A DNA stretch of 64,000 bases from positions 1-64,000 of IMG/VR virus record IMGVR_UViG_3300044981_000350; one strand, given 5' to 3'. The stretch comes from a virus. This document shows positions 29,027 through 46,785 of this stretch, piece by piece. The notes beneath the pieces are model-generated. The model worked only from the letters and a program-made list of their open reading frames with translations. It was not told the origin of the DNA and searched no databases. Position numbers and translations under genes: made by a program. The first letter of the stretch is position 1. Every line of letters begins with the position of its first letter.

Positions 29027-29076
29027 CCTGCTAAGAAACCTCCCTCACCTTCTCATCCCCGGGGAACTACCACCAG

Positions 29077-30543: not shown

Positions 30544-30707
30544 AGCCGGCCGACAATCACCCGTTCAAAACCCGCCGCCGCGCCATCGCGGGCCCGAACG
30601 TCGACGACGCGCCCGCGAAACACCCACGCCCCGATTGGATGTCGAACAAGGATTTGCTCCCCAAGAAGCCGCCCGTGGGTCCGTCGACCCCGAAGGACTA
30701 CCGATGA
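30540..30707 (+). CDS. 55-residue basic Pro-rich peptide
   Basis: GTG 30540 overlaps the stop of the previous gene and the stop overlaps the next ATG (ATGA). The product begins MKPADNHPFKTRRRAIAGPN and continues with Lys/Pro-rich, probably disordered sequence. It may be a small virion or assembly factor. It is too short for family recognition. Confidence 0.5.
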   Translation: MKPADNHPFKTRRRAIAGPNVDDAPAKHPRPDWMSNKDLLPKKPPVGPSTPKDYR

Positions 30708-32212
30708 GTGACGATTTGGATCTCGAAGACACGTCGGAAGAGGAGCCCGAGGAGACCCCCAAGCCCGCACCGCGCAAGTCGATGCGGCCAAAACGCGGGG
30801 TTGGAAACGCAGGTGCATTACCGGCGGCCGTCGGCGTAGCCCCCGGGGCCCCCGCGCCATTCCGCCGCCAAGCTTCCGAGGCCGATGCGGTGTGGAATGA
30901 GCTCGTCGCGTGGCTTCCTTCTGCGGGATTGACCCCGCGTGACATCGCGATCCAAGTGCGTCGCGTCGCGCCCCCCGCGCCCTCCGGTGAACCCCTCCCG
31001 ATCGGTCGCGCGTTCGGCGGCGAGATGGTGAGCGGGAACAACACCGAGCCCCCCGGCTCTGCGCTTGTGCAGTTCGTCATGCGCTACATGCACATGCCCC
31101 TCACCCAGACACCGGCCAGCTACGATCTCATGTTCATGCGCAAGGCCACCGGCGCGCAACTCGCGACGGGCCGCTTGGCATTGCCTTCGGCTCAAGATTG
31201 CCAGGCGATGTTGCAGGCCGGCGAGCAAGCCGGTTTGGGGGCCCCGGGCGCACCGCCACAACAGATGTGGCAACCGCCGCCGATGTATCCGCAGGGCCCG
31301 GGGTTACCGCAGGGGTACCCTTGGCCTTCACAAGGGACCGGCTATCCCCAGACCTACCCCTCGGCGCAATTCGGGCCGCCCCCACAACCCACTGCGCCGC
31401 AAGGATTCGCGGCCCCCGGAATGGATCCCGGGGTGATGAGCGAACTCGCCTCACTCCGCGGTGCGCTCGGTGAAGCACTCGCAGCGGCGCGCGAAGGCCG
31501 TCAACCGAATATCCCCGGCATGACGCCCCCCGCAACCCCTACGGGCACCGGCGGCCTTACCGATCTCGATGTCGATCGCATTGCCGCACGCGTCGCGACG
31601 ATGATGGGCGCGGTTGCAAAAACAGTGGGGGCCCCGCCGGCACCTCCTCCGCCCGTCCCGACGGTTGCGGCGCCTCCCCCGGATTCGAGCCTCGAAGGGA
31701 TGATGCGCACCGCGGTCGCCGGCATGACCAAGCGCATCTTCGACACCGCCCTCGGGAGTGTCGAAAAGAGCGTGACGCGATCCATCGGCATCGGCGGTCT
31801 GCCGGGTGGTTCAGAAGACGATGGGGATGAAGAGCGGCCGGCGCCCGCGGAGATCATTCCGCCGGAGAAGCCCGAAGACATGGTGCCGTGGAAGGTCGGC
31901 GACGTCGGGGCCAACTGGAGTAACGGAAGCCCCGTCAAGATCGCGATGAACAAGGAGACGGGGAAATTGGATCCCATGGGCCTCGCCTTTGCGAACCCCG
32001 CGGTGGCCGAAAAGCTCATCGACGTCGCCAACGGTCTCGGGATGGCACTTCAGGATGCGATCAAAAACTTCGGGGCGAAACCCGGAGTCGGCGCACCGCC
32101 GCAGCCGAGCCCCCACGTGGTGCATTCGATCCCCGCCGGCGCCGTCGACGCTACGGTCGGGGCCTCAGATGATACGCCGCAAGCAATTCCCGACGGTTGG
32201 CAAGCGCCGTGA
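30704..32212 (+). CDS. Large Pro/Gln-rich structural or scaffold-like protein
   Basis: The 502-residue protein starts acidic (MSDDLDLEDTSEEEPEETPK), has a short globular block (VWNELVAWLPSAGLTPRDIAIQVRRV), a long Pro/Gln/Tyr-rich disordered region (PPQQMWQPPPMYPQGPGLPQ and onward), helices (ELASLRGALGEALAAAREGR), and a C-terminal block with EIIPPEKPEDMVPWKVGDVG. This disordered, multivalent build is typical of scaffolding or internal virion proteins. Confidence 0.55.
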   Translation: MSDDLDLEDTSEEEPEETPKPAPRKSMRPKRGVGNAGALPAAVGVAPGAPAPFRRQASEADAVWNELVAWLPSAGLTPRDIAIQVRRVAPPAPSGEPLPIGRAFGGEMVSGNNTEPPGSALVQFVMRYMHMPLTQTPASYDLMFMRKATGAQLATGRLALPSAQDCQAMLQAGEQAGLGAPGAPPQQMWQPPPMYPQGPGLPQGYPWPSQGTGYPQTYPSAQFGPPPQPTAPQGFAAPGMDPGVMSELASLRGALGEALAAAREGRQPNIPGMTPPATPTGTGGLTDLDVDRIAARVATMMGAVAKTVGAPPAPPPPVPTVAAPPPDSSLEGMMRTAVAGMTKRIFDTALGSVEKSVTRSIGIGGLPGGSEDDGDEERPAPAEIIPPEKPEDMVPWKVGDVGANWSNGSPVKIAMNKETGKLDPMGLAFANPAVAEKLIDVANGLGMALQDAIKNFGAKPGVGAPPQPSPHVVHSIPAGAVDATVGASDDTPQAIPDGWQAP

Positions 32213-32319
32213 CTTGGTGCGATCTCGCCGAAATCGCCCTTTCGTTCGCGTCGGCGCCGGTTACGATGATGGCCCTCGCCTGCCTGGAGTGGTGGATCGA
32301 ACGCAGCCGACCCGTGTGA
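32209..32319 (+). CDS. 36-residue single-span peptide
   Basis: GTG 32209 overlaps the preceding stop (GTGA). The product VTWCDLAEIALSFASAPVTM continues MALACLEWWIERSRPV, one hydrophobic stretch with charged tail. It fills the gap to the next gene and fits the pattern of tiny membrane proteins of this genome. Confidence 0.4.
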   Translation: MTWCDLAEIALSFASAPVTMMALACLEWWIERSRPV

Positions 32320-32328
32320 TAGGCTTCG

Positions 32329-33639
32329 GTGGTGGTGACGCCCCATTGGCCGTCGTATCAAGGCACGGCCCGACGGGGCCTCGGGCTCGACGTGGGATCG
32401 CTCACGACGGTCGCCAGCAGCGCGGGCGCTGCGGCCAACGCCGGAGACGTCTTCAACCCGGATGATCCAACGCAGGATCTACCGGGGCAGGCTACGGCTC
32501 AGTTCAACTCGTTGGTGAATTCGGCCCAGCCCGCGGTAGCTCTACAGCAACAGCTTCAAAGCGCGATCGGCTCCGCCACCGGCCAAGCCCAAGCGGCTTT
32601 CCAAGGGTATGCGGGCGAGATCCAGGCCATCGAGAGCTACCCCGGGGCGGCGGAGGCGGCCGAAGGGATGATCACGGCCGCCGGTGGTGGTGTGCCGACG
32701 GACGCTCAGCTCCAAGGGGCCTTCACCGTCGCGGCAACCGCCGGTGCCGTGGCCCTCGGTGCGACCGCGACGGCCGCGGCGACTATCGTGGCGCCCCTCT
32801 GCGCGGTCGTATGGGGAGCCGGGTACGCGATTGGGGCCCTCGTCCAAAACATCCTCGGGATCACGAGCGGTAGCCCTGCACCATGCTCCGGCGGCGACAC
32901 CGCGGTGTACGGAACATCTCCCGGAGATCCGAACTGGCAAACGTACATGGGGTTATCGGGCCCAGAGCTCGGCGCACCGTGGGGCCCCTACGCACCCCAG
33001 CAAGCAGCGAACATCCAAACGTTGAAGAGCCTCGCCGGTAACCCGACGTACGGCGCCCCTGCGAACTGGCCCTATTGGACCCCGTACACGCGAGGGGCCT
33101 TCGAGAACTGGGCCGGCGGGATCATCATCCACGCCGAAGAGCTTTGGATGAATTGCAAGAAGGTGCCGCCGGACAACACGGCGACCACGCTCTTGAAGGG
33201 TCTCGTAGGGGCGTGGAACGCGCAGTACCCCAATGCGCCGAAGCGTCAGATCAACATCGCCGGCCTGGGGCCGACACCATTGGATGGCCAGATCAAGACG
33301 CTGAGCAACACGTCGTTTCCAACAAGTTTTCGGCCCCCGCTCTATTGGCAATGGATGGCATGGCAGGGCGATCCCATTCAGTACCTCTTGACCCAGGTCT
33401 CGAATGAGCAAGGGGGGAATATCGCGATCACCGTCGCCGACCCACCCCTGACGCCCCCCGCGGCCTCGGCCCCTACTACTTCCGCGGGTACCGCCGTCGC
33501 CAACGTCGCGGCCGGTACCGCCGTCGTCGGCGGGGCGGCACTCACCGGGACCGCAGTGTATGCTTTTGCCAAGGGTCAAGCCGTCAGCACCGTCCTCAAG
33601 TCGGGCTTGCTCGCGATCAAGGGATGGTTCATTCGATGA
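32329..33639 (+). CDS. Membrane-associated virion protein
   Basis: The 436-residue protein has an Ala/Gln-rich N-terminal region, a hydrophobic segment around residue 130-165 (AATAGAVALGATATAAATIV then APLCAVVWGAGYAIGALVQN), a Trp/Tyr/Pro-rich central globular domain (NWPYWTPYTRGAFENWAGG), and a C-terminal membrane-like stretch (VANVAAGTAVVGGAALTGTA). Three consecutive GTG codons start at 32329. It precedes and overlaps the first of the NP-tagged membrane proteins, suggesting a role in an internal membrane or its vertices. Confidence 0.55.
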   Translation: MVVTPHWPSYQGTARRGLGLDVGSLTTVASSAGAAANAGDVFNPDDPTQDLPGQATAQFNSLVNSAQPAVALQQQLQSAIGSATGQAQAAFQGYAGEIQAIESYPGAAEAAEGMITAAGGGVPTDAQLQGAFTVAATAGAVALGATATAAATIVAPLCAVVWGAGYAIGALVQNILGITSGSPAPCSGGDTAVYGTSPGDPNWQTYMGLSGPELGAPWGPYAPQQAANIQTLKSLAGNPTYGAPANWPYWTPYTRGAFENWAGGIIIHAEELWMNCKKVPPDNTATTLLKGLVGAWNAQYPNAPKRQINIAGLGPTPLDGQIKTLSNTSFPTSFRPPLYWQWMAWQGDPIQYLLTQVSNEQGGNIAITVADPPLTPPAASAPTTSAGTAVANVAAGTAVVGGAALTGTAVYAFAKGQAVSTVLKSGLLAIKGWFIR

Positions 33640-34079
33640 AACGCCGCCGCAGAGCTCGCGCGAACCCGACGGGGGCCCAATGGCTCCTCATCTCGGGTGC
33701 AATCGGCGCCGTCGGTGTGCTGGGCTACCTCGTCTACAAGGCGAACGCCCCCGCTGCATCGCTCCCCTCCGGTGCCGGCTCGACCTACAACGTTCAGCTC
33801 TCTTCGGGTTCTCTCCCGACCATCACGATGTCGCTCTCGAAGGGCGACCAGATGAGCCTCACGCCCCCCGCGGGCGGTACCCTCCCCACCGTGACCTTCA
33901 GCCCCACGAACATCGTCGGCCCCAACCCCAACGGGGCCTACCTTGCCTACTCACCGATCGCGGTCGGTAGTACGACGTGCACGGTCAACTACACCGACAC
34001 GACCGATACAACCAGCACGACGAGCACCGCCACCGGCAACACCGAAACCGCAACCTTCACCGTGAACGTGACAGCTTGA
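33636..34079 (+). CDS. NP-tagged single-span virion protein with beta ectodomain (copy 1)
   Basis: The N-terminus MKRRRRARANPTGAQWLLIS leads straight into one membrane span (ISGAIGAVGVLGYLVYK), followed by a Thr/Ser-rich Ig-like beta domain (YNVQLSSGSLPTITMSLSKG ... TATFTVNVTA). The basic stretch, Arg-Ala-Asn-Pro, then a span is shared by at least seven other small proteins of the module. Positive-inside topology puts the short basic tail on the DNA side of a membrane and the beta domain on the other side. Confidence 0.65.
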   Translation: MKRRRRARANPTGAQWLLISGAIGAVGVLGYLVYKANAPAASLPSGAGSTYNVQLSSGSLPTITMSLSKGDQMSLTPPAGGTLPTVTFSPTNIVGPNPNGAYLAYSPIAVGSTTCTVNYTDTTDTTSTTSTATGNTETATFTVNVTA

Positions 34080-34279
34080 TGGCTCGGCGTCGCGCGCGGG
34101 CGAACCCCGGAGTGGATGTGTGGCTCGCGCTTGGCGCAGGCGTCGCCTTGCTCGGTGCCGGCATCTACTTCTTCACCAGACCGGCAGCCACCACAAGCAC
34201 TACCGGCACCGGCGCACTTCCCCCAAGCACCCACCGCGCGGCCATCCCGATGGTCTACACCGCCCGCCTCACTTCCTGA
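34079..34279 (+). CDS. NP-tagged single-span protein (copy 2)
   Basis: ATG 34079 overlaps the previous stop. The 66-residue product begins MARRRARANPGVDVWLALGA, one span ending YFFTR, and a short Thr-rich tail without a folded ectodomain. It shares the tag of its neighbours and therefore belongs to the same family in a minimal form. Confidence 0.65.
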   Translation: MARRRARANPGVDVWLALGAGVALLGAGIYFFTRPAATTSTTGTGALPPSTHRAAIPMVYTARLTS

Positions 34280-34291
34280 TCGGAAACCCCC

Positions 34292-34738
34292 ATGGCCCGT
34301 CGACGCAAGCGCACCCGTAAGACTGAAGTTCGAGAGAACGGCCCCGAGCTCCTCTGGATTCTCGCTGGGTTGGGCGTTCTCGGCGCTGGCACCGTGGTCT
34401 ACCTCGCAACGCGGCCCCCGGCGACGACGACTCCCTCGTCGGCCGCGGTGCAGGCGGCGACGCAAGCGCGCCTCAACGCGATCGAGTCGAACATCGCTGA
34501 TCTGGCCAATGAAGGAATCCCGGCGCCGGTGAGTGATACGATCCCGAACAACGTCGCCACGGCTCTTTCGAACGGTGGCGGTAGTACGGGCCCCGTGAAC
34601 ACCGGGAACGCCGACGTCGACAACGCTGCGAACAGCGCGATCAATAACGCTACGGGCCAAGCTACCGACGCGGTGAATAACGCGACGAGCAGCGCCGGCA
34701 ACGCGGTGAACAGCGCGGCCTCTCAGCTCGGATTCTGA
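34292..34738 (+). CDS. NP-tagged single-span protein with Asn/Ala-rich helical ectodomain (copy 3)
   Basis: The N-terminus MARRRKRTRKTEVRENGPEL carries a variant of the tag (Glu-Asn-Gly-Pro) before the span LLWILAGLGVLGAGTVVYL. The ectodomain is helical and Asn/Ala-rich (NADVDNAANSAINNATGQAT), reminiscent of a trimeric coiled-coil or late-embryogenesis-like repeat, unlike the beta ectodomains of the other members. Confidence 0.6.
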   Translation: MARRRKRTRKTEVRENGPELLWILAGLGVLGAGTVVYLATRPPATTTPSSAAVQAATQARLNAIESNIADLANEGIPAPVSDTIPNNVATALSNGGGSTGPVNTGNADVDNAANSAINNATGQATDAVNNATSSAGNAVNSAASQLGF

Positions 34739-34747
34739 TCTTTTCCG

Positions 34748-35359
34748 ATGGCGCGCGCTCGTGAAAACCCCATTGAGCTGGCCGTGTGGCTCATCGCTGC
34801 CCTCGCGGCCGCAGCGACAGGTACGGTTGTCTACGTAGCTGCGAAGAAGAGCGCATCGAACGCCGCGGCCACTGCGGCGACAACGGCCGCGAACAATGCG
34901 GTGCTCATCGGCCCCGCCATCACGAACCCCGAGGCCGGCGGCGCGGGAAACTCTGTCGCCGAAGCGGCCAACGCCGCCTTTGTGGCCGATCAGCAAGCCG
35001 CCGCCGCGGCCGCCGCCGCCAACGCCGCCCACCTCGCGACGTTGACCGACACGACCTACCAGCTTTCATTGAGCGGGCAGGCCCCCTCAGCGACCGCCAG
35101 CTTTCTCCTCAAGGTCGGCGACACGATCCAGATCACGCCGAGTATGGCCGGGGACCCGCCCGTGGCTCGGGTGTGGACCTACAGCCCCGTGAGCTCTAGC
35201 AGCATCATCCAAGAGTTGGGCTCGGCCGATGGGGTGAGCGCCACCTTCAAAGCGACCGCCCCGGGCTCGGGGGTTCTCCTCGTGCAGAACGTCATGGCTG
35301 GCAACCAGAATGTCGTCTACATGACCTACACCGTCAACGTCGAGGTCATCGCAACGTAG
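34748..35359 (+). CDS. NP-tagged single-span virion protein with Ala-rich linker and beta domain (copy 4)
   Basis: The 203-residue product begins MARARENPIELAVWLIAALA with the tag and one span, then a long Ala-rich helix (KKSASNAAATAATTAANNAV and DQQAAAAAAAANAAHLATL), and a final Ig-like beta domain (TYQLSLSGQAPSATASFLLK ... MTYTVNVEVIAT). The layout suggests a stalk that holds a domain away from a membrane. Confidence 0.65.
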   Translation: MARARENPIELAVWLIAALAAAATGTVVYVAAKKSASNAAATAATTAANNAVLIGPAITNPEAGGAGNSVAEAANAAFVADQQAAAAAAAANAAHLATLTDTTYQLSLSGQAPSATASFLLKVGDTIQITPSMAGDPPVARVWTYSPVSSSSIIQELGSADGVSATFKATAPGSGVLLVQNVMAGNQNVVYMTYTVNVEVIAT

Positions 35360-35386
35360 GGGCGAACATAGGGTATTGGAGGCATG

Positions 35387-35419
35387 GGCGGGGGCAGCCT
35401 TAGCCAATTCTGCCCCGCC
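35387..35419. promoter_or_regulatory. Stable hairpin in the gap before 35.4-kb gene
   Basis: GGCGGGGGCAG (35387) pairs with CTGCCCCGCC (35410) leaving one bulged G, loop ccttagccaatt. There is no U-run behind it, so it is more likely an mRNA processing or translation element than a terminator. A promoter-like AGTAAACT follows at 35422. Confidence 0.45.
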
Positions 35420-35435
35420 GCAGTAAACTCCCTCT

Positions 35436-35705
35436 ATGGACGTCAAGTCGGGCGCTCTGGTCGGTTTCGTGACGGCCCTCGGGGGTGTCGCCGGCCTCGT
35501 GTTCGGATACACGGCTGCGTCGCTGGTCGACGCCAAGAAGCCCGGTGAGGTCGCGGTAGGGTTCGGGGTGATCGGCGGCCTGGTGGCCTCCTTCGCGGCC
35601 GGCACCATCATCGCACCGGACGCAACTACGACGACCAGCACGACCACAACGACCCCCACCCCGGCGGTGGGCTCTTCCGGGATTCCGGCGCAACTCAGCC
35701 GATAA
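35436..35705 (+). CDS. Two-span membrane protein with Thr-rich tail
   Basis: The 89-residue product has spans SGALVGFVTALGGVAGLVFG and VAVGFGVIGGLVASFAAGTI, a short loop with DAKKPGE, and a Thr-run tail (ATTTTSTTTTTPTPAV). It lacks the basic NP tag. It lies among virion membrane genes; holin-like size and topology make lysis another option. Confidence 0.55.
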   Translation: MDVKSGALVGFVTALGGVAGLVFGYTAASLVDAKKPGEVAVGFGVIGGLVASFAAGTIIAPDATTTTSTTTTTPTPAVGSSGIPAQLSR

Positions 35706-35716
35706 AGGGCCCGGCC

Positions 35717-36931
35717 GTGGCCGACTTCAACCCCGCACTTCCCGCGACGGCGACCCGGCGGCCCTACCCCGATGGGGCCCCGGGCATTCGCATGTCCCTT
35801 GAGGCCATGGCGCAGAAGATGCGCGAGGGTCGGTTGGACCCCGGCGTGCGGGGATGGGCGATTCAGGCGTTGAAGGATGCGGGGATCGACGGGCGTGGAA
35901 ACACGACGGTGCGCGCGCAGGCTTCGGCGCTCTTGGATGCATTGCGGGCGGTCACGACATACGCACCAGATCCCTACGGGGCCGAGTATATCCCTAGCGC
36001 CGCCGCCACGTTGTGCCTCAAGCCAAACCTCTGCGTCAACGGCGAAGACTGCGACGGGTTGAGCGTTGCACTCGGAAGCCTGATGCTGTCGATTGGGATC
36101 CCGACCCAGATCGTCAAGCAGACCTTCGGGGGCGGCGCCCAAGAGCACGTCCTCATCGCGATCTACGACGGGACCGATTGGCTTTACGCTGATCCGTCGA
36201 CGCGGTTGCCGCTCGGGGGCGCCGTGAGTGCAGCGCGCGAAGATTGGATCGATCCGATGGGTGCGGTGGGCCCTCTGCCGGAGGCGCAACCCGAGATCAT
36301 CACCCTCGGAAAACCGCGCGGCCTCGGGAGCGTTCTCGGGTACCCGACGACTTCCGACGCGCACCAACTCCTCGACACGGCGATCTACAACGCCGGCCAG
36401 CTGAAGACCGCGTGGGATAACTGCAACAGCTGCACAGGCGCTTCGTCGACCACGTGCGGATGGCCTGACCCGGGTACGACTAACATTTCCGCAACCGGCC
36501 CCGGCGCCGATGCGTGGGCTGCGTGGCAAGCCGACTGCGGCAGTATGATCAACGACCTCAATACGCTCGTCGCGCAATGGAACGCGCAGAGCGCGACGGC
36601 TGCGCACTGGATGGATTCGTGGAGCTACGACCCGCTTTTTTGGGATCAGATCCGCGGTATCATCGAGCGTCAGATCGATCTCGATCAGCGCTTCCGAAAC
36701 AGCGGCACTAACTGCGCGCTCCCGACTTACCCGAATGAGCCGCAGCCGATCGCTACGAACGACCCCGACCAGTGGGTTTACCAGGATGCGAACAGCGCGA
36801 TCAAAGGGGTCGAGAGCGTTGCGGCCAATGCGGTGAAGCCGGTGTCGATCGCGATCGGCGGCATCGCAGTCGGCTTGATGCTCGCCGCCGGCGGTTACTT
36901 CCTTCTTGATCGACTCATCCCCCGGCGATGA
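35717..36931 (+). CDS. Transglutaminase-fold protein with C-terminal membrane anchor
   Basis: The 404-residue product contains a transglutaminase-like papain-fold core: Cys112 in NGEDCDGLS, His144 in QEHVLIAIYDG, and Asp159 in YADPS. A Trp/Asn-rich middle domain with a Cys cluster (NCNSCTGASSTTCGW) follows, and a C-terminal span (SIAIGGIAVGLMLAAGGYFL) ends the protein just before the basic tail. Transglutaminase-like phage proteins can act as proteases or amide-forming enzymes on protein or peptidoglycan. Anchored in a virion membrane it could be an entry enzyme. GTG 35717 is used. Confidence 0.7.
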   Translation: MADFNPALPATATRRPYPDGAPGIRMSLEAMAQKMREGRLDPGVRGWAIQALKDAGIDGRGNTTVRAQASALLDALRAVTTYAPDPYGAEYIPSAAATLCLKPNLCVNGEDCDGLSVALGSLMLSIGIPTQIVKQTFGGGAQEHVLIAIYDGTDWLYADPSTRLPLGGAVSAAREDWIDPMGAVGPLPEAQPEIITLGKPRGLGSVLGYPTTSDAHQLLDTAIYNAGQLKTAWDNCNSCTGASSTTCGWPDPGTTNISATGPGADAWAAWQADCGSMINDLNTLVAQWNAQSATAAHWMDSWSYDPLFWDQIRGIIERQIDLDQRFRNSGTNCALPTYPNEPQPIATNDPDQWVYQDANSAIKGVESVAANAVKPVSIAIGGIAVGLMLAAGGYFLLDRLIPRR

Positions 36932-37581
36932 CCATGGGCTTGGTCGCTCCCGGTTCCTCCACGGCGTCGACCATCGCCCAATATTTTTTCTGGGGCGTCG
37001 TCGCCGCGGGGCTCGGCACCATCGGCTACTACATCTTCGCGCCGATCCCTCACGAGCGGGATAACCCTCGGCTCGGATCCGGCGGCCCGCGCGGTGGCTC
37101 GAAGAAACGCAAGCTGCCGATCGTGAAGGGCCGGAGCTGTCGGTTTGAAATGAAGGAAGGCCCCGATGTCACGTGCGCGGGGGCGATGCTCCACGACCCA
37201 ACGGGCAAGGCATGGCCGGCGCGTTCCGTTTTGTGCGGGCCCATTCGGCGCAAACTTCGGAAGGCATCCGATGCGGAGCTCGAGGGGGCGGGCCGCCACT
37301 ACTTCGGCGGGAGTTATCCCGCGCGCGTCGTTGAAATCGATGCGCCCAACCGCAGCATGGAAGGTTGGCGGTACCTCGGCGAGGTTGAGCGGATCTACTA
37401 CACGCGCGTGGGTCGAAAAAACGGCAATGTGCGGTTCCAACATCCCTTCAACAAACCGAGCGCGCTCGCGACGGTGATGAAGGGCCGGGGCAGGGTGCGG
37501 CTATACCGTAAGGGCCGCTTCGTTCGGTTGGAGCTCCCGCGGGGTAGCATTCTTGACAGTAGAGGCTATGTTTGGCCCTGA
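36928..37581 (+). CDS. Single-span virion protein with basic C-terminal domain
   Basis: The first 40 residues form a span (YFFWGVVAAGLGTIGYYIFA) followed by the charged tag IPHERDNPRLGSGG, which again contains an Asn-Pro, here on the far side of the span. The soluble part (about 160 residues) is basic and beta-rich (GRGRVRLYRKGRFVRLELPR), suggesting binding to DNA or acidic partners. It overlaps its neighbours by 4 and 1 bases. Confidence 0.55.
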   Translation: MTMGLVAPGSSTASTIAQYFFWGVVAAGLGTIGYYIFAPIPHERDNPRLGSGGPRGGSKKRKLPIVKGRSCRFEMKEGPDVTCAGAMLHDPTGKAWPARSVLCGPIRRKLRKASDAELEGAGRHYFGGSYPARVVEIDAPNRSMEGWRYLGEVERIYYTRVGRKNGNVRFQHPFNKPSALATVMKGRGRVRLYRKGRFVRLELPRGSILDSRGYVWP

Positions 37582-37814
37582 TGACAAATAATCGGTCTCT
37601 CATCGTGGAATACAAAGGCGGCCTTGATGTGAGCATCGACCGGGCGGTGGAGAAGGGCGCCCGAAAAGAACGGGACGGCTCGGGGTTTTCGTTCCTCGAT
37701 GGAACTCGGGATCTCTCGTTCTCATTCACGCAGGGCCGTTTCGCCGAGGCTGCGAAGGCTCGAATCAAAGCCATGCTTGGGCGAAAGGTCACCACCCGCA
37801 TTGTCTCTCACTGA
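37581..37814 (+). CDS. Hypothetical 77-residue basic protein
   Basis: ATG 37581 shares a base with the previous stop. The product (MTNNRSLIVEYKGGLDVSID ... FTQGRFAEAAKARIKAMLG) has a small alpha/beta layout with a basic C-terminal helix. It is less G+C-rich at the start than the neighbours. The function is unknown. Confidence 0.5.
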   Translation: MTNNRSLIVEYKGGLDVSIDRAVEKGARKERDGSGFSFLDGTRDLSFSFTQGRFAEAAKARIKAMLGRKVTTRIVSH

Positions 37815-37858
37815 AGCTGCCGAGCGCGCCCTTGCCAAATTTGATAGGCTGATGGAGC

Positions 37859-39361
37859 GTGGGCGATTACCTCGACAAGCTTGGCGCAAATCGGGCCGAC
37901 GGACTAGAGCACGCCGCAACCGCCAAGTCGCACCGTAAGCTGCGCCGCAAGGGTACCTCCTTGACGACCACCCCGAAGCGCGCGAAACTCAGAGTCAAGC
38001 GAGTCGCTACGAAACCACCCGGGAAGGAAACGAGGGGCACCACCAAAAAGACTCCGTCGGAGAAAGCGAAGATGGCCAAGAAGAGCAAGCGCTCGAAGAA
38101 GCGTCGTTCGGCAGCGCAGCAAGCCGCGACGCGGAAGATGCTTCGCGCCGCCAAGGCAAAGCGAGCCGGGAAAAGCCGCCGCGGCTCTTCGAAGCGAAAG
38201 GCCCGTAAGAGCGGCAAGCGCAAGAGCGCGAAGCGAGTCGCCGCGGGCAAAAAGGCCGCGCGGACCCGCAAGCGCCGCGCGTCCGTTGGAGCCTCCGAGC
38301 CGACGCGCAGCAAGCGGAAGAGCGGCAAACGTAGGGCCCGAAAGGTTCGTGCGGCTCACTCGATCAAGCTTCCCCGCGGCAAGCGCGGTGCAAAAAAGCG
38401 CGTCGGCGTCCACGTAAAAGTGGGCAAGAAACGCCGCTCGCGTGGATTCTCAGTTCCGCGGAAGACGAAGCGCGTCTACGTGATCGCAGCCGAGAAGAGC
38501 CGCCGACGTCGGAAGCGCAAGGCAAAGGCCAACCCGGCCAAGCGCCGCCGTCACTCGAGCGGTCGACGCAAGGGCGCGATGGAAAACCCGATGGACGGGG
38601 TGGAGCTCTTCATCGGAGCCATCACCGGCCTCGCGGGCTTCCTGACCGCCGACGTGCTCGACCGTTTCCTCGCGACTCACCCCCTAACGGTCTCTACGGC
38701 CGCCTCCGGGTCGACCGCAGCGACGTATACCGATACGCCCCCGACGTCGGGCGACTACCAAGGCCTCTTCAATGCGACCGCGATCTGCGCCCCGATGGAC
38801 GCAACGCGGTGGCTCGCCGGCCTCGGTGTCGCAACCGTTCCGCTCGTCATCGCGCACTTCATCTCGGCCCCCAAGGGCCGAGCGGCGCTCCAGTTCTTCG
38901 GCTACGCGGCCGGGATCCGGGTCGTCGGCAAGGGCGTGATCGACATGATCGCGCAGCTCACGCAGCCGACGCAGCTCGGCCAGCAGCTGTACGACGGTGA
39001 GATGCGCGCCGCGGCCCTCAAGGCCGGCAACGGCACGATCGCCTCTGGCGTGAACCTCCCGAGCTCCGGCTTGGGTCGTGCCCGCCTCGGCACGGGCAAG
39101 CCCTGCGCCCCTTGCGCCACGAAGAAGATGGGCGCCGGTTACCCCAGCGCTCCCCGCGAAGTGACCGCGGTGACGAACAACAGCACCCCGACCACGCAGA
39201 ACCAGCCCACGTCGACCCCGACGAATACGGCCCCCACGGCCTCGGCCCCGGCGGCCACCCCGCCGGCGCCTCCCGCGGCCGCGAACACCCTCACGGGCGC
39301 GCGCTTCATCAACGGGCTTCCTCGACGAAACCCGAATTGGGGTTATCAAGGAGACGAGTAA
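37859..39361 (+). CDS. Histone-like basic domain fused to a membrane domain (DNA-membrane tether)
   Basis: Residues 1-240 are extremely Lys/Arg-rich with SKKRR, GKRKSAKR and KRKSGKRRARK blocks resembling histone H1 or protamine tails. Then come KANPAKRRRH and AMENPMDGVELFIGAITGLAG, two NP tags ahead of a membrane segment, further hydrophobic parts (LAGLGVATVPLVIAHFIS), a Pro/Thr-rich linker, and a final GLPRRNPNWGYQGDE. The design fits a protein that condenses genome DNA and links it to an internal membrane. GTG 37859 is used for its G+C-rich third positions; ATG 38071 is a shorter option. Confidence 0.65.
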   Translation: MGDYLDKLGANRADGLEHAATAKSHRKLRRKGTSLTTTPKRAKLRVKRVATKPPGKETRGTTKKTPSEKAKMAKKSKRSKKRRSAAQQAATRKMLRAAKAKRAGKSRRGSSKRKARKSGKRKSAKRVAAGKKAARTRKRRASVGASEPTRSKRKSGKRRARKVRAAHSIKLPRGKRGAKKRVGVHVKVGKKRRSRGFSVPRKTKRVYVIAAEKSRRRRKRKAKANPAKRRRHSSGRRKGAMENPMDGVELFIGAITGLAGFLTADVLDRFLATHPLTVSTAASGSTAATYTDTPPTSGDYQGLFNATAICAPMDATRWLAGLGVATVPLVIAHFISAPKGRAALQFFGYAAGIRVVGKGVIDMIAQLTQPTQLGQQLYDGEMRAAALKAGNGTIASGVNLPSSGLGRARLGTGKPCAPCATKKMGAGYPSAPREVTAVTNNSTPTTQNQPTSTPTNTAPTASAPAATPPAPPAAANTLTGARFINGLPRRNPNWGYQGDE

Positions 39362-39379
39362 CAGACGACGAGTGGCGGC

Positions 39380-39401
39380 GTTTTCCCGGGGAACGGAAAA
39401 C
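39380..39401 (+). promoter_or_regulatory. Hairpin in leader of the candidate capsid gene
   Basis: GTTTTCC (39380) pairs perfectly with GGAAAAC (39395) over an 8-base loop, in the 105-base gap ahead of the main capsid candidate. TTGACC at 39411 could be a -35 element but I see no matching -10. It may stabilise a highly expressed capsid mRNA or terminate the upstream transcript (tctttg follows). Confidence 0.4.
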
Positions 39402-39466
39402 AGAGTGTCTTTGACCGTTGGGTGGCGCCTTTGGGGCACCCGACAACACCAGGTTGGAGACAGATC

Positions 39467-40798
39467 ATGGCCTATCAATCGCGAATCGTGAATCAGCCGA
39501 AGAGCAAGACGCTCGTTCGGCCCCGTCCCGCAGACCGCTACGTCGTGGGCGCCTCCGGCGTTCCCAATGAGGCGAAGATCAAGGCAGGCCTCGGCTCGGC
39601 CGGTCTCGGCTCGATCCTCGACATCATGAAGGCGTCTAGCGAGACGCCGGTGTGGAGCATGGACGTCATCGAGCAGGTCCGCTGGACGATGACCGGCCCG
39701 CAGACCGACGCGTCGGTTCAAGCGAACTTCGGCGCGGAGATCGACCTCTTCGGCTCCGGCAAGTCGCCGCAAGGCATTGACTTCGTCGAGACGACGATGG
39801 CGCAGACGGGCCAGACGCAGACGCACTTCGTCGCCTGCTACATCGGCTTCCACATGGAGCCGGAACCCCTCTGCTTTACGGCGCGCGGCAACGCGTCGAC
39901 GCACCCCACGAGCGCGGTGGCTCAGCCCCCGTCCCCGGACGTCTTCACGCAGAACGACCGCGCCAACGGCGCCCTCGGCACGGCCGTCGCGGCCGGCACC
40001 CAGACGTTCCTCCCGGCGGTCTACCGCCACGGCTGGTGGGCGAACTACGTTTGCTGGCACATGGCCCGCGCGTACAACCTCCGGTGGAAAATCGGCCAGC
40101 ACGTCAACATCATGGACGAGCAGTTGCGCCACACGGCGTACATGCCGCCCAGCGCGCAAGAGGGCTCGGCCTCCAACTCGCAGGTCGATGTGACCACGTT
40201 CGTCGCGAACCTCAACCAGCGCTACGACTCGCTCGGGTCCGCGCTCGACTTCATCCCGTCGAACTTCATCCGCATCGGTAGCGACGCGGTCGGCGGCGTG
40301 AACGTCGGTTTCTTCATGCCCTCGCGTGACTTCGAGATCGTCGATGCCACCTACGGCGGCATGGACCTCCGGAGCATGCTCAAGGGCAACAGCGAGATGC
40401 GGAAGCTCTGCGTCCCGTACGTCATCGCCCCGGGCGTGCCCATCGGCCTCTTCCTCCAGGAGTGCGACACAGTTCAGGGCGACACGATGCGCCAGTTCCT
40501 CTCCATCACGCAAGGCCTCGGCGGCGCAATCCCGCCCTCTCTGACGCCGGACGAGAACTACATCGCGGAGCCGACCGCCACGGGCACCAACGTCATGTTG
40601 GAGCGCACGCTGAGCGGCACGAACGTCGCGCAGCAAGTCGACGCCGAGCGCGTCGTCTTCCAGGGCGGCGATCTGAAGCTCACGCTTCCGATCCGCGGCT
40701 TCGAAGTGAGCGCCGACTGGTACAACCAGCTCTCTTCGTCCGCCGACATCCGCGCCGCGGTCTTCGACTGCGTCGGGATGCGCTTCGCGGCTCAGTGA
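39467..40798 (+). CDS. Candidate major capsid protein
   Basis: The 443-residue soluble protein has no membrane segment or enzyme motif and is mixed beta-rich (QTQTHFVACYIGFHMEPEPL, VNVGFFMPSRDFEIVDATYGG, LKLTLPIRGFEVSADWY). It begins MAYQSRIVNQPKSKTLVRPR after a fair ribosome site. It has its own leader region and is followed by two further beta-rich genes. Size and context suit a major capsid protein, possibly of a jelly-roll type as in tailless phages. I recognise no HK97-like pattern. Fold assignment needs structure prediction. Confidence 0.5.
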   Translation: MAYQSRIVNQPKSKTLVRPRPADRYVVGASGVPNEAKIKAGLGSAGLGSILDIMKASSETPVWSMDVIEQVRWTMTGPQTDASVQANFGAEIDLFGSGKSPQGIDFVETTMAQTGQTQTHFVACYIGFHMEPEPLCFTARGNASTHPTSAVAQPPSPDVFTQNDRANGALGTAVAAGTQTFLPAVYRHGWWANYVCWHMARAYNLRWKIGQHVNIMDEQLRHTAYMPPSAQEGSASNSQVDVTTFVANLNQRYDSLGSALDFIPSNFIRIGSDAVGGVNVGFFMPSRDFEIVDATYGGMDLRSMLKGNSEMRKLCVPYVIAPGVPIGLFLQECDTVQGDTMRQFLSITQGLGGAIPPSLTPDENYIAEPTATGTNVMLERTLSGTNVAQQVDAERVVFQGGDLKLTLPIRGFEVSADWYNQLSSSADIRAAVFDCVGMRFAAQ

Positions 40799-40832
40799 CA
40801 ACGGGGGTAGCTCCCCATAAGGAGACCCTCCG

Positions 40833-41588
40833 ATGAGCAATATCGTCGCATTCAGCGAGGAGCAGTTCAAAGCGCTCATCGCTCAGATCCGAACCCCCCA
40901 TAGCAGCGGGTTGGGCGCGCCTCCGGGCAAGCCCTCTCGAGCCTTGGGGTTCGGATGCGGCGACAGCGACTTCGGCCCGCTCGCCACCGGCATCTACTCG
41001 ATGCTGGCGGCGGGCTCGCCGCGTCTCGCTCTCGCCAAGGCGCGCGGCGTTCCGCTCGCCCCCTACATCATCAACGTGCGGGCGATCTTCCCGGACACGT
41101 CCACCACGTTGGTCCCCGACGTCGGCAGCGACGTGAAAATTACGCAGGATACGCTCATCGACTCGCTCATCATCCGGATCCAAAACGAGTCGGACACGGC
41201 GAACCAGAACCAGTTTCAGTCGCTCTCTGACTTCTTCTACGGGTACCAGAGTGCGATCGAAGCGACCCTCGATGTGCAGGGCGCGCCTCGCTATACGGTC
41301 ACCGGCGATAAGTTCGTTCCCCTCAGCGTGCTGGGCGATCCGAACAACGGCGTCGGGCACTGGCCCGGCGGGTGGGTGCTCACGTATCAGCAACAGCTCT
41401 TCATGAGCTTCCAGGCGAAGGTGCTCCTTCCCTACGCGCCGATCGAAGTGATCTGCTCGTTCCGCGGTTGGGTGCCGGTCACCCAAGCTTTCGTCAGCAT
41501 GACGAACCGCGAGGCGATCACGCTCCTTCAATCGGAGTTCGGCATTCAACTGGACGATTCGTACATCAATCGAGTCGTTGCCCTCTGA
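40833..41588 (+). CDS. Candidate second capsid protein
   Basis: The 251-residue protein (MSNIVAFSEEQFKALIAQIR) has a short helical N-terminus and a beta-rich body (AIEATLDVQGAPRYTVTGDKF, WVLTYQQQLFMSFQAKVLLP, IEVICSFRGWVPVTQAFVSM). A strong ribosome site (aaggagacc) precedes it. The position between two other candidate shell proteins suggests a minor capsid, penton or second major subunit, as in phages with two capsid proteins. Confidence 0.45.
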   Translation: MSNIVAFSEEQFKALIAQIRTPHSSGLGAPPGKPSRALGFGCGDSDFGPLATGIYSMLAAGSPRLALAKARGVPLAPYIINVRAIFPDTSTTLVPDVGSDVKITQDTLIDSLIIRIQNESDTANQNQFQSLSDFFYGYQSAIEATLDVQGAPRYTVTGDKFVPLSVLGDPNNGVGHWPGGWVLTYQQQLFMSFQAKVLLPYAPIEVICSFRGWVPVTQAFVSMTNREAITLLQSEFGIQLDDSYINRVVAL

Positions 41589-41600
41589 CCCTAAGCCCCG

Positions 41601-42410
41601 ATGGGTCGCATCGTCGAAATTGCTTCGAGTGGGCTCGATGAATACCTCCAAGGCGTCGGCGGCGACCCTTGGGGGGGTTCATCTGCGCTCGGCTTGCGCG
41701 TTCCCTTTCTTGCGACGCCCGACAAGAACAACCGCTACCTCTTTCTCCTCGCGAGCTTCACGATCGGCGAGGGCGCGTCGGTAGTTATCAAGGGCTACCG
41801 ACAATACGCATCCCTCGGGATCGCGCTCAGCGCAACGCGGTTCATCGAGCAAGAAATCACGAGCCCTGCGTTTCGACTCCCCGACGGGAACATCAGCTGG
41901 GCGATCCGAGGGTTGGGCCCGCCGAACGCCGGCGGCTACCCAAAGCAGGGCCCTACCCCCGACGATCTGCGTTCGTTCAAGAAGAACTGGGCCGACGGCA
42001 GCTGCCTTCTCTATAACGACTACACGATCGCGGCGGGCAACCAGATTTACACGCAGCTCGAGTCCTACGTGGCGCCGAACCTCGGTCGACCGTGGGGCAC
42101 CGCGCTCCCCGCCGGGCAGCAAGGCAACTTCACCGACCTACGCACGCCGTGGAAATCGAGCCGCGCGTGGGCGAGCCTCGATGTTCACGTCGATGGACCC
42201 ACCACCATCGCGTTTTTCGCCAGCGTGCGGCAAAGCGCCGGCACCTACGCGGCGGCCGCCCCATCGGCGAGCTTCTCCGGGATGAACACCCCCGAGGAAG
42301 CTTTCATGGCGAACTTCACGACGGGCGGCGATGCGCCCACGAAGCCAATCTACTGGCGCGTCGGGGGAAGTCTCATCGTGGAAGTGCAGAAAGGATTCAC
42401 GGGTCCATGA
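41601..42410 (+). CDS. Candidate third capsid-associated protein
   Basis: The 269-residue protein (MGRIVEIASSGLDEYLQGVG) is beta-rich with blocks LGLRVPFLATPDKNNRYLFLL, ASFTIGEGASVVIKGYRQYA and LDVHVDGPTTIAFFASVRQS. It has no membrane segment. Its stop overlaps the next NP-tagged gene by 4 bases, linking shell and membrane genes in one transcript. Penton or spike-base roles are possible. Confidence 0.45.
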   Translation: MGRIVEIASSGLDEYLQGVGGDPWGGSSALGLRVPFLATPDKNNRYLFLLASFTIGEGASVVIKGYRQYASLGIALSATRFIEQEITSPAFRLPDGNISWAIRGLGPPNAGGYPKQGPTPDDLRSFKKNWADGSCLLYNDYTIAAGNQIYTQLESYVAPNLGRPWGTALPAGQQGNFTDLRTPWKSSRAWASLDVHVDGPTTIAFFASVRQSAGTYAAAAPSASFSGMNTPEEAFMANFTTGGDAPTKPIYWRVGGSLIVEVQKGFTGP

Positions 42411-42784
42411 AACGCCGCAAACGTCGTTCCTCAGAGACGATCGTCGTCTACCAGAAGAACCCGAAAATCTCCCCGTGGGTGTGGGTCCTCGGCGGGGCGG
42501 CTCTTCTCGGCGGCGGGTACCTCACCTACTGCTATTTCAAGACGCACTTCACGGTCGCGGCGAGCATGGCCTACGGGGTGCCGGCCGGCGCAGCGATTAC
42601 CCTCACTGCCCCCGCGGGCGCCACATGGACCGGGCTCACGGCCAGCGATGGGAGTCAAGTGCAAGTCGCGGTCGGGCAGACGACCCCCCTCACGTTTACC
42701 GCGAGCGCCACGACGGGCGTGACGTATACCGTCGCGTGGACCCTCAACAACGTGCCGGCGACGGCCACCATCACCACGCAGTAA
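42407..42784 (+). CDS. NP-tagged single-span protein with Ig-like domain (copy 5)
   Basis: The N-terminus MKRRKRRSSETIVVYQKNPK has the basic stretch and Lys-Asn-Pro, then a span (SPWVWVLGGAALLGGGYLTYC). The ectodomain is an approximately 75-residue beta sandwich with the phrase LTAPAGATWTGLT, closely mirrored in the next two genes. These three look like tandem duplicates. Confidence 0.65.
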   Translation: MKRRKRRSSETIVVYQKNPKISPWVWVLGGAALLGGGYLTYCYFKTHFTVAASMAYGVPAGAAITLTAPAGATWTGLTASDGSQVQVAVGQTTPLTFTASATTGVTYTVAWTLNNVPATATITTQ

Positions 42785-42788
42785 ACCC

Positions 42789-43190
42789 ATGGCTCGTCGA
42801 AACCCAGACCTGTCCACCCTCTGGTGGGCCCTCAGCGCCGCATCCCTCGCAGGCACCGTCGGCTACTACGTCGGCAAGGGCGTCAACCCGCTCAACCCGG
42901 CGTCGAACGTCACAACGAATATCGCCCTGACGAATGGCGGTTCCCTCACGGCGCCGGCCGGCGGTACCTGGATCCTGACCCTCCCGAGCGGCGCGACGTG
43001 GACGAACCTGACGGACACGAACAACGACATCACCTCGCCGCCCACGGGTACCGGCCCCGCTACGATTACCACCCCGGTTTCGGGTGTGACCTACACTGCA
43101 ACGTGGAGCACGACCCCCACGACAGTGACCACCGGTCGAAACAATCGAAACAACCAGAATACGCAGACCGCCACGATCACGGCGCAATAA
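42789..43190 (+). CDS. NP-tagged single-span protein with Ig-like domain (copy 6)
   Basis: MARRNPDLSTLWWALSAASL starts with the minimal tag Arg-Arg-Asn-Pro and one span ending GYYVGKG. The ectodomain (NGGSLTAPAGGTWILTLPSG ATWTNL) repeats the fold of the preceding protein, then an Asn/Thr tail (GRNNRNNQNTQTATITAQ). Confidence 0.65.
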   Translation: MARRNPDLSTLWWALSAASLAGTVGYYVGKGVNPLNPASNVTTNIALTNGGSLTAPAGGTWILTLPSGATWTNLTDTNNDITSPPTGTGPATITTPVSGVTYTATWSTTPTTVTTGRNNRNNQNTQTATITAQ

Positions 43191-43199
43191 GGGAATCCC

Positions 43200-43592
43200 A
43201 TGGCTCGACGAAAATCCCTTGCCCGCCGATCCCGATCGAGGGAAAACCCCGGCATCCCCCTCTGGATCTGGCTCGCCGGCGGGGCCCTCGCGGCGGGCGG
43301 CGTCGGCTACCTCATCTACACGAACACCGTGAACAGCCCGGCGCCGGCCCCGGGAGCTACGGCGGCCCCCGGGACGTCGAACATCACATTGGGTACGACC
43401 CCCGTCACCGTCCCCGGAGGCTTCGTTACCGTGAGTCTACCCGTCAACGCCACGTGGGTTTCCCTCACCGGCGGCGGGGCCACGGCGGGATCTTCTGACC
43501 AGGTGACTATCAACCTCCCCAGCGGAAGCACCGCGACGGCCGTTTGGAACAACGGAACGGCCCAACAGACCACCACCATTACCGCTTCGTAG
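43200..43592 (+). CDS. NP-tagged single-span protein with Ig-like domain (copy 7)
   Basis: MARRKSLARRSRSRENPGIP carries a longer basic leader before Glu-Asn-Pro and the span PLWIWLAGGALAAGGVGYLIY. The ectodomain (NITLGTTPVTVPGGFVTVSL ... TATAVWNNGTAQQTTTITAS) again ends in the TTTITA strand common to copies 5-7. Confidence 0.65.
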   Translation: MARRKSLARRSRSRENPGIPLWIWLAGGALAAGGVGYLIYTNTVNSPAPAPGATAAPGTSNITLGTTPVTVPGGFVTVSLPVNATWVSLTGGGATAGSSDQVTINLPSGSTATAVWNNGTAQQTTTITAS

Positions 43593-43608
43593 CCCCGCGT
43601 AGTATCAT
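43580..43608 (+). promoter_or_regulatory. Candidate promoter before the next membrane genes
   Basis: TTACCG (43580) and TATCAT (43603) are spaced 17-18 bases apart and followed by a good ribosome site (taggagat) before ATG 43630. The gap is only 37 bases, so part of the element lies in the previous gene's end. Confidence 0.3.
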
Positions 43609-43629
43609 AGTCCTAGGAGATCAACCCCC

Positions 43630-43842
43630 ATGCGCCGTCGTGCTCGTCGAAACCCCACCCTTCCCACCTGGGCCCTCGTCCTCGGGGGAGCCGCCGTCGT
43701 CGGCGCCGTGGGTTACGCCATCTACACCAAGCAGCAAGCCACGACGCAGATCGCTGGCGCTGCCAACGCACTCGCCCCCGCGTCCACCACGACCACGTCG
43801 TCTACGACCACGACGACGCCGGCCGCCACTTCGTCGTCGTAA
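43630..43842 (+). CDS. NP-tagged single-span protein, short form (copy 8)
   Basis: MRRRARRNPTLPTWALVLGG has the tag and a span ending YAIYTKQQ, then an Ala-rich part and a Thr/Ser run (PASTTTTSSTTTTTPAATSSS). No ectodomain is present, as in copy 2. The Thr/Ser-run tail is like that of the protein at 35436 and could be an O-glycosylation target. Confidence 0.65.
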   Translation: MRRRARRNPTLPTWALVLGGAAVVGAVGYAIYTKQQATTQIAGAANALAPASTTTTSSTTTTTPAATSSS

Positions 43843-43851
43843 ACCCCGCCG

Positions 43852-44394
43852 ATGGGAATGTGGGATCAGGCGAGCGATTGCGAGACCTGCGGCGGCGGCC
43901 TCCGCGCCTGGGGCCATCTCGCGCCGCCCAATCCTACTGTTTCCCTAGATGAGGTGAGTCCGATGGATGTTGGAAATCGATGGGGCATTTTGACGGGTGC
44001 CGGGGCCGCACCGGATCGGCTCCGGCGCGTGCCGCGGGTCTTCGCGGGGCTCGGTGACGACAGCTCCGACGATAACCCGCCCGTCGACACCGACACTACG
44101 AGCGGGAGCATCGACAGCAGCGACAACTCCGACGCTGCGGTCAACCCGACGATTTCACCGGTCACCGCCAACCCCGGCGAGACCATCTCCGCCAGCCCGA
44201 CGCCGACTGCGGTTTCAAACGCGAATGGCGGCGGCTCGACATCAAGCGGCGGTGGCGGTTCCCCGAGTGTCTCCTCAAGTACCCCCGCGAGCACGAACTA
44301 CACCCCGTGGATCATCGGGGGCGCGGTCGTCGGCGGGGCCGGCCTCCTCGGGTTCGCGCTCTGGCGGCGGCACCACAAGCTGCATCGGCGATGA
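43852..44394 (+). CDS. Virion protein with acidic ectodomain and C-terminal span
   Basis: The 180-residue product has a CETCGGG motif near the N-terminus, a long Ser/Asp/Thr-rich disordered region (DDSSDDNPPVDTDTTSGSID), a Gly/Ser stretch, and a C-terminal span with basic end (YTPWIIGGAVVGGAGLLGFA then [11 protein letters not shown]). Topology is the reverse of the NP-tagged proteins. The same 'PWIIG' span opens the C-terminus of the next protein, so they are related there. Confidence 0.55.
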   Translation: MGMWDQASDCETCGGGLRAWGHLAPPNPTVSLDEVSPMDVGNRWGILTGAGAAPDRLRRVPRVFAGLGDDSSDDNPPVDTDTTSGSIDSSDNSDAAVNPTISPVTANPGETISASPTPTAVSNANGGGSTSSGGGGSPSVSSSTPASTNYTPWIIGGAVVGGAGLLGFALWRRHHKLHRR

Positions 44395-44819
44395 AGCTCC
44401 TCGGCGCCGGTAATCGTGGCGCCGGGCTTGGGGATGCCTCGATCCTTCCGGCGGATCCACTCACCCAAGCGACTGCGGATCTTGTGGCGTGGCTCGTGGC
44501 GAGTCCGTGCACGCAAAACGCCGTCACGCAGGTAAGCGATTTCCAAACGGCGTGGAACACTTCGACGCTCGGCGGAACGCTCACCGTCGACGGTAAATAC
44601 GGGCCCCAAACACGCGGCGCGCTCCAAGCGGCGATGAACGCGGCGGGGACGGGGAGCGCCCCCGCAGATTGCTTCACGTCCGCGAGTGCGGTGTGCCCTC
44701 AGGCTGCGGCCGCTGCGTCATTCGCACCCTGGATCATCGGCACCGCCGTGGTCGCTGGCGCTGGTGTTATTGCGTACACTTATTGGCAGCTCCACCACGC
44801 TCGCGGCGGCCGCCGCTGA
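44391..44819 (+). CDS. Peptidoglycan-binding-like domain with C-terminal span
   Basis: The 142-residue product contains [35 protein letters not shown], which fits the PG_binding_1 motif (FQ..W...[13 protein letters not shown]). A C-terminal span ([20 protein letters not shown]) with a basic end follows. A virion-membrane protein that grips peptidoglycan would help cell-wall penetration. ATG 44391 overlaps the preceding gene. Confidence 0.65.
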
Positions 44820-44829
44820 GGATCCCCCG

Positions 44830-45507
44830 ATGCCCATTCCCTACACCCAACCGGGTTACTCGTACAGCCCCGTCGCAGCCGTTTCGCTCGGCCAAGTGGG
44901 GGCTACGGGATCGCACGGGGCGAGCGGGCCGACAGGCCCCGCGGGGGCCACTGGAGCCACCGGACCGACGGGCACTACCGGCGGAGCGGGAGCGACGGGA
45001 GCTACCGGGAGCGGAGCTACGGGAGCCACTGGAGCCGCCGGCGCGACAGGCCCCGGTGGTGGAGCCACGGGAGCTACCGGCGCAGGTGGTGCGGCCGGCG
45101 CTACGGGCGCCACCGGAGCGGCCAATACCGGCCATCATGCCTACAGCCAAAACGCGTCGGCGGTGAGTGCCTCTACGACGCCGACGTTCACGAGCGGGTC
45201 CTACACCTCGACTTCGGGGACGATCCTCATCATCGCTACCATGACGGCTACGGGGCTTGGCGCGACGTTGGCGGCAAACGACGCCGTTGTCTTCAACCTC
45301 CTCCAAGACGGATCGATCATCGGAACTTCCCCGAGCATGAGCGTTGGCGCTGCGGGCCCCGGCCCGGTCGACGCGTCGGGCGCCCTCTCGATGATCCTCG
45401 CCGCCTCCGGAGCCCACACCTACGCGATCCAAGCGACGGTTTTGACCGGGAGCCACACCGCCACCGTTCAAATCGGCCAGGCCGCCATTTCCATCACCGA
45501 CCTCTGA
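44830..45507 (+). CDS. Collagen-like spike protein (MPIPYTQPG type, first)
   Basis: ATG 44830 starts [20 protein letters not shown], then about 70 residues of Gly-Ala-Thr/Gly-Pro repeats, and a C-terminal beta domain of about 125 residues ([20 protein letters not shown]). The N-terminal tag recurs in the next gene. Such short collagen-like proteins with TNF-like or knob heads are trimeric spikes. Confidence 0.75.
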
Positions 45508-45531
45508 TTTTTTCCCTCCGAGAGAACCGCC

Positions 45532-46137: not shown

Positions 46138-46140
46138 CCT

Positions 46141-46785
46141 ATGAGCGTCGGCCAGATCCTCAACCGCGGCTCACGGGTTGCCGTTCAACCGGGGATCCCC
46201 GCTGGCGCTACAGGCCCGAGCGGAGCCACGGGGCCGACCGGCGCCACGGGAAGCACGGGGCCCACTGGCTCCCCCGGAGCTACGGGTGCTACCGGGGCCA
46301 CGGGTGTCGGAGCCACGGGCGCTACGGGGCCGGGTGGCGCGGGCACCGCCGGGGCTACCGGGGCTACCGGGGCCACGGGAGCTACGGGAACGGGAACAGC
46401 CGGCGCGACTGGCGCCACCGGACCGACCAGCGCCGGGGGGCCGGCCGTAGTCACCGCCTCTACACCAGAGGACACCAACCCCCACACGTTGACGACGCGC
46501 GCCATCACCTCCAATACGGAGCTCGTGGTCGAGGTTGTTTTTCTCGCGCGTGACCCCACCGACGGCAATGACGAGGGCGGCCGTATCGCCGGTACCTTCA
46601 AGAATACGGCGGGGACCGCAGTGCAAGAGGGGACGACGACGAAGGTGTGGCAGCAGGCGAACGCCGGGGGCGTCGTTTGCACCTTCGGCGTGACCGGCGG
46701 GAGCTACGAGATCATCGGGACCGGCAACGGTGATGGCACCACCGACTGGACTCTCTACATCTACGAGTACCCAAGCGAACTCTAA
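46141..46785 (+). CDS. Collagen-like spike protein, third of the cluster
   Basis: The 214-residue product has a different N-terminus ([20 protein letters not shown]), a collagen-like stalk to about residue 100, and a beta-rich head with acidic turns ([20 protein letters not shown]). It ends convergently against the glycosyltransferase gene, with the two stop codons overlapping. Confidence 0.75.

Follow-up and report, generated by a model that had tools for sequence, protein, structure and literature searches.

An Asn-Pro membrane anchor reused by eight small proteins encoded around a putative capsid gene of an apparently tailless bacterial virus

The DNA considered here, called the window throughout, comprises the first 64 kb (positions 1 to 64,000) of the 73,439-base IMG/VR virus record IMGVR_UViG_3300044981_000350 (G000); related records and loci are labelled G or L with a number where they have to be told apart. 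The subject is a set of eight small genes, all on the plus strand, which lie on both sides of a gene for a putative capsid protein and were found at the starts given in the original prediction. The four upstream genes code for anchor proteins 1 to 4, of 147 aa (33636..34079; MKRRRRARANPTGAQW, a span and a beta-rich ectodomain), 66 aa (34079..34279; MARRRARANPGVDVW, a span and a short tail), 148 aa (34292..34738; MARRRKRTRKTEVRENGPELLW, a span and an Ala/Asn-rich ectodomain) and 203 aa (34748..35359; MARARENPIELAVW, a span, an Ala-rich stalk and a beta-rich domain). The four downstream genes code for anchor proteins 5 to 8, of 125 aa (42407..42784; KNPKISPWVW, a span and a beta-rich ectodomain), 133 aa (42789..43190; MARRNPDLSTLWW, a span and an ectodomain akin to those of the 42407 and 43200 proteins), 130 aa (43200..43592; RSRENPGIPLWIW, a span and a related ectodomain of the 42407/42789 type) and 70 aa (43630..43842; MRRRARRNPTLPTW, a span and a Thr-rich tail). 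As had been claimed, basic residues are followed in each of them by [AEKR]NP (Asn-Pro, NP; NGP in the 34292 protein) and a single hydrophobic stretch, and the tag recurs in two larger neighbors, namely as KANP and AMENP ahead of the membrane part and RRNP close to the C-terminal end of the 37859 protein, and as HERDNP after the span of the 36928 protein. The number of basic residues ahead of the tag ranges from two Arg (MARRNP in the 42789 protein) to eight, and most of the eight proteins carry a Trp 3-6 residues past NP, a feature absent from the earlier description. Genes beyond the mechanical list of open reading frames were called with a simple codon-usage caller and spans were assigned by hydropathy, both of which are approximate. 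For the 34079 gene, whose correct start was not found by the caller, the earlier start was used, in agreement with the sequence.

A 36-residue module around NP and the span is common to all eight proteins, with a mean BLOSUM62 local score of 53 compared to 21 for 96 unrelated spans, which were taken from non-structural proteins of the same viruses. When the tag is removed, the module still scores 41 compared to 19 for unrelated spans, so the proposed family proved to be a real one, and its members should be regarded as paralogous in their anchors rather than as products of eight independent events. All 7 array members above the hydropathy cut (the 42789 protein falls just under it) have NP ahead of their first span, compared to 21 of 190 other proteins with an N-terminal span in G000 and eight related records (Fisher p=6e-7), many of the 21 being tagged relatives themselves. 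Processing of the type IV pilin kind was also considered and rejected by inspection, as the eight sequences have neither a G|F-type prepilin site nor Glu5.

The ectodomains are similar to each other only in the 42407, 42789 and 43200 proteins, with a weaker relation to the 33636 protein, which in turn modestly matches the 34748 protein; a shared module combined with ectodomains related only in a subset points to one anchor with varied cargo. In the slot following the 32329 family, G000 contains a beta-rich ectodomain, while G001 and G002 contain the same NPSG-T/S-TW-span sequence with a different ectodomain, which resembles a peptidoglycan-binding domain as judged from its sequence, and the counterpart in G003 keeps the basic-NP-span order with yet another ectodomain. 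The basic segment of G001 exceeds that of G002 by about 30 residues, with NP and the span unchanged. The earlier description of some ectodomains as immunoglobulin (Ig)-like was borne out for their beta-rich sequence, but the Ig fold is plausible rather than proven, since no Pfam domain reaches its cut-off. An anchor protein of the same type in G004 does contain a chagasin Ig-fold domain (family I42, PF09394, E 7e-9, above cut-off), which is weak in the analogous single-span proteins of G005 and G006; none of the window anchors scanned (33636, 34292, 34748, 42407, 42789, 43200) reaches the PF09394 gathering score.

The larger tagged protein (37859..39361, plus strand like all further genes of this block) consists of a protamine-like K/R-rich domain of about 240 aa, the sequence MENP, a conserved membrane domain with an ADxxDRxxAT motif and a Pro-rich tail. 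All 11 of the closest records share a conserved start (DYxxL...R...PExAA), followed by about 200-270 Arg/Lys-rich residues, the membrane domain and the Pro-rich tail, and the basic and membrane domains occur in a single frame in every relative examined. The junction between them reads [M/A/L][E/A]NP in nine of these records and RRNPSQYG or KRNPSQYG in the other two. The fusion is also kept in the wider group, where the junction is LENP, LLENP or LLQNP in L081 and L083-L085, whereas NP is missing there from L082 and from most of the L068-L080 sub-group. What stays constant is thus the fusion, while its junction varies and NP is a punctuation often found there.

The neighboring genes of the structural block code for a transglutaminase-like protein with a C-terminal span, whose family occurs in 28 loci (35717..36931), the single-span protein with HERDNP, whose C-terminal domain is conserved but whose span is present only in the closest relatives (36928..37581), the putative major capsid protein of 443 aa (39467..40798; the mechanical list starts it at 39422), a conserved protein of 251 aa always located after it (P251, 40833..41588) and a further conserved protein of 269 aa (P269, 41601..42410). 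Relatives were sought in viral contigs with the 443-aa protein and then with P251 and P269, which yielded 29 loci (25 distinct sequences) encoding all three in a row, mostly in records of 38-120 kb. The common block of this group consists of the protamine-like/membrane fusion, the putative capsid protein and the two further proteins. Two motif scans of GTDB genome contigs detected neither relatives of the capsid candidate nor prophages, and 50,697 phage records searched with tblastn yielded no match to the capsid candidate from three sub-groups, to P269, to the transglutaminase-like protein or to the membrane domain of the 37859 protein. The replication genes are phage-like and include PolA with an N-terminal uracil-DNA glycosylase (UDG) domain, a VapE-type helicase, a RecD-like helicase and a tyrosine integrase, and matches to endolysins indicate a bacterial host. 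Among the G000 proteins searched, none could be identified as a terminase, a portal, an HK97 capsid or, convincingly, a tail protein, the exceptions being generic Ig-like/tail-fiber matches of the 29692 and 44307 proteins and a short "head closure/baseplate" match of the former over about 85 residues. The 29 loci represent a large undescribed group of apparently tailless bacterial viruses.

The nearest isolate is apparently SSIP-1, a membrane-containing icosahedral phage with two types of capsid proteins and a genome with hardly any similarity to others (PMC6356626). Of the 57 SSIP-1 proteins, 56 were compared with eleven family profiles by hhalign. The family of the transglutaminase-like protein turned out to be homologous to gp34, annotated as a structural protein of the virion (Prob 97, E 1e-11; next SSIP-1 protein, E 0.09), and gp34 itself matches only SSIP-1, a fecal fragment and an archaeal pleomorphic virus in the phage collection. 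The family of the capsid candidate matches gp45 best (E 0.003 across 42 columns, a weak match given that 56 comparisons were made), gp46 was not matched, and the remaining profiles gave no further match among these 56 proteins. An AlphaFold model of the capsid candidate based on a 25-sequence alignment is beta-rich and of moderate confidence (predicted local distance difference test, pLDDT, 74.4; predicted template modeling score 0.73); an earlier run with seven sequences (pLDDT 38) was discarded. Foldseek matches of the model are weak, with papillomavirus L1 first and SPV1 and PRD1 lower, and because of the low template modeling (TM) scores a jelly roll is only suggested by this model. Identity of the best BFVD match, I1ZBH9, with SSIP-1 gp46 was a guess from its length of 211 aa and gained no support from sequence comparison. 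In the G004-G006 clade, the putative capsid protein (L026:6673-7968 and L030:1995-3290, both on the minus strand, and L036:3530-4813) starts with the basic sequence QKNPRLTLG, a basic-NP start without a span, and in G009 a piece of about 40 residues of the capsid candidate (YGGMDLRHMLRGNSEF...) is duplicated in a separate protein of 113 aa, where it follows an N-terminal span (L055:11877-12218, minus strand).

Tagged genes flanking the capsid gene, a neighbor homologous to an SSIP-1 virion protein and the protamine-membrane fusion together lead to the reading that the eight proteins are modular inner-membrane anchors of an SSIP-1-like tailless virion, with their N termini directed to the DNA and NP serving as helix start and hinge, to which we assign a probability of roughly 0.58. 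A lipid membrane inside the capsid is also suggested by the many spans encoded in the structural block. Virion location, topology and DNA contact are what we infer from these data, and that part of the original prediction, a virion membrane with the basic tails on the DNA side, is supported to this extent. One N-terminal anchor module would be reused by the paralogues to hold varied ectodomains in the inner membrane of the virion. The Arg/Lys tail would point towards the packaged DNA, or to the cytoplasm during assembly, a single Gly/Ala-rich helix would cross the membrane, and the C-terminal part would either be exposed at the surface or occupy the space separating the membrane from the capsid shell. 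Asn would cap the helix and Pro would fill its first turn, the pair parting the basic tail from the span as a hinge at the bilayer surface; since the same junction links the protamine-like and membrane domains of the 37859 protein, that protein would hold condensed DNA at the membrane. Several observations weigh against this reading. The capsid candidate is only weakly similar to known capsid folds (best PDB match E 3e-3, TM-score about 0.1), and its best BFVD match is an unnamed 211-aa viral protein (E 1.6e-3, probability 0.99). No packaging ATPase was recognized in G000, whose P-loop proteins are of replication types (AAA_24, VapE, RecD-like, SNF2); a HerA-like ATPase was seen in G009 only, and the AAA_24 ATPase was dismissed as a packaging motor because its place beside a gene for a protein like single-stranded DNA-binding proteins suggests recombination instead. 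Furthermore, membrane topology was derived from hydropathy, the distance from NP to the span varies between about 3 and 10 residues, further NP pairs lie within the basic domain, remote from any span, and two proteins, one in G009 and one in G003, carry NP plus an ST stretch.

The role of NP itself can be judged from the relatives. In G004-G008 the same anchor opens with MKKSTK, MKESTK or similar in place of NP, and these Ser/Thr-type anchors score 34 against the window anchors (unrelated controls, 21). Asn, Ser, Thr and Asp are favored helix N-caps and Pro is favored in the first turn, and NP alternating with ST or SE at the start of the span is what helix capping predicts. Both caps occur in one protein in G009 (SNPVMKKST) and in G003 (EANPISSSTKKW), which means that the span itself does not always have NP as its cap, and a hinge setting apart the DNA-side tail may be its more general role. 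Taken together, NP looks less like a site of cleavage than like the start of a helix and a hinge in the structure; the capping role is what we infer from these exchanges.

The original prediction had instead taken NP as a signal for recognition or cleavage in assembly into a virion membrane. On this view, a virus-encoded factor would read the tag, either to sort membrane proteins into the virion or to cut basic domains off their anchors during maturation. The retention of NP in all eight paralogues and in the 37859 junctions of each of the 11 closest records, the ENP/QNP junctions in L081 and L083-L085 and the RENP and HENP sequences in SSIP-1 gp41 and gp44 would fit such a tag, but Ser/Thr caps stand in for NP in relatives, the length of the basic segment is free, and the junction lacks NP in the sub-group and locus mentioned above. 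Moreover, the papain-like protease motif, found in G000, G001, G002, G007 and G008 only, does not follow the tag: G003 has the tag without the protease, and G007 and G008 have the protease with untagged small proteins. Pro in the P1' position is refractory to most proteases and rarely cleaved. This part of the prediction is not supported, and a cleavage or sorting tag appears quite improbable. An internal translation start at MENP of the 37859 protein is also conceivable, but G001 and G002 read RRNP-SQYG-M, where NP is not preceded by Met.

The anchors might also work in the host membrane, in lysis, exclusion or envelope remodeling, as non-virion proteins whose basic N terminus only sets topology. 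Peptidoglycan-binding-like or chagasin-like ectodomains and basic tails as predicted by the positive-inside rule are in line with this view, which is nevertheless unlikely, as the anchor genes are located among conserved structural genes, the fusion protein adjoining the capsid candidate has the same NP junction, and similar junctions occur in SSIP-1 virion proteins. That the eight are unrelated membrane proteins in which NP recurs by composition or convergence would suit the unrelatedness of several ectodomains and a mild over-representation of NP in all proteins of these records (observed/expected 1.27); it is very hard to reconcile with an anchor similarity far above that of unrelated spans, even with the tag removed, and with the 7/7 versus 21/190 distribution.

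Some further features of these records should be mentioned. A papain-like cysteine protease (NQGQTGSC) is encoded at 51683-52609 of the window and at L054:11896-12726, and its G008 homologue matches PF00112 above cut-off; in G004-G006, chagasin-like inhibitor domains are present on the same kind of anchor and the protease is absent. A G-[LFMIV]-G motif occurs within the first 70 residues of 61 of 176 structural-block proteins and 56 of 497 others (p=2e-11), in the G000 structural block (29000-46000; e.g., 32329, 39467, 40833, 43963, 44391) and its relatives, often at the junction of a flexible start and the fold and in part within glycine-rich spans, and would qualify as a maturation site more readily than NP. 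A GroES-like Cpn10 gene (50480-50782; PF00166, E 1e-14), conserved beside the structural block, perhaps serves capsid folding, and at least eight collagen-like (GATGATG) proteins (window 44830-46785 and 5-5609; L016:7411-9439), several with a shared start, are probably surface fibers. The fusion of UDG and family A DNA polymerase (18392-20902) is conserved in close relatives, and a 93-aa protein (58457-58738) consists almost wholly of GYGNGYGDGN repeats.

These results point to an unrecognized virus group characterized by a modular membrane-anchor system and by a protamine-like/membrane fusion in every member examined. Should the reading proposed above be right, the organization of DNA against the virion membrane would become testable. 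A more general proposal, which we regard as speculative and rather doubtful, is that in a widespread group of large tailless membrane viruses of bacteria the packaged genome is a nucleoprotein which a histone-like membrane protein holds at the virion membrane, perhaps with no motor dedicated to packaging, and that those inner membrane proteins which contact this DNA are recognizable by the shared basic-NP-span anchor.

The N-terminal domain of the 37859 protein is similar to adenovirus core proteins, protamines and histone H1 in its Arg/Lys-rich, DNA-condensing composition, with sequence homology not demonstrated, and differs from them in its fusion, within a single polypeptide, with a membrane domain. 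Phages of the PRD1/PM2 type also encode many small single-span proteins within their structural gene block, although no sequence match to the proteins described here was found, and we know of no NP anchor module shared among them. To our knowledge, the genomes of known internal-membrane phages are smaller than about 45 kb. SSIP-1, a tailless phage of PRD1-adenovirus architecture with an internal membrane, has a genome of 43.8 kb, and most records of the new group are larger; it also differs in its replication genes, in a virion-annotated ATPase (gp40) and in its gp44, which is without a K/R-rich domain, and the capsid candidate has no tblastn match there. What SSIP-1 shares with the window is a transglutaminase-like gp34 homologue with a C-terminal span, RENP before the C-terminal span of the virion-annotated gp41, DNPW directly at the span of the small gp39, and HENPSG in gp44, whose gene is located just before that of gp45, as the 37859 gene is before 39467.

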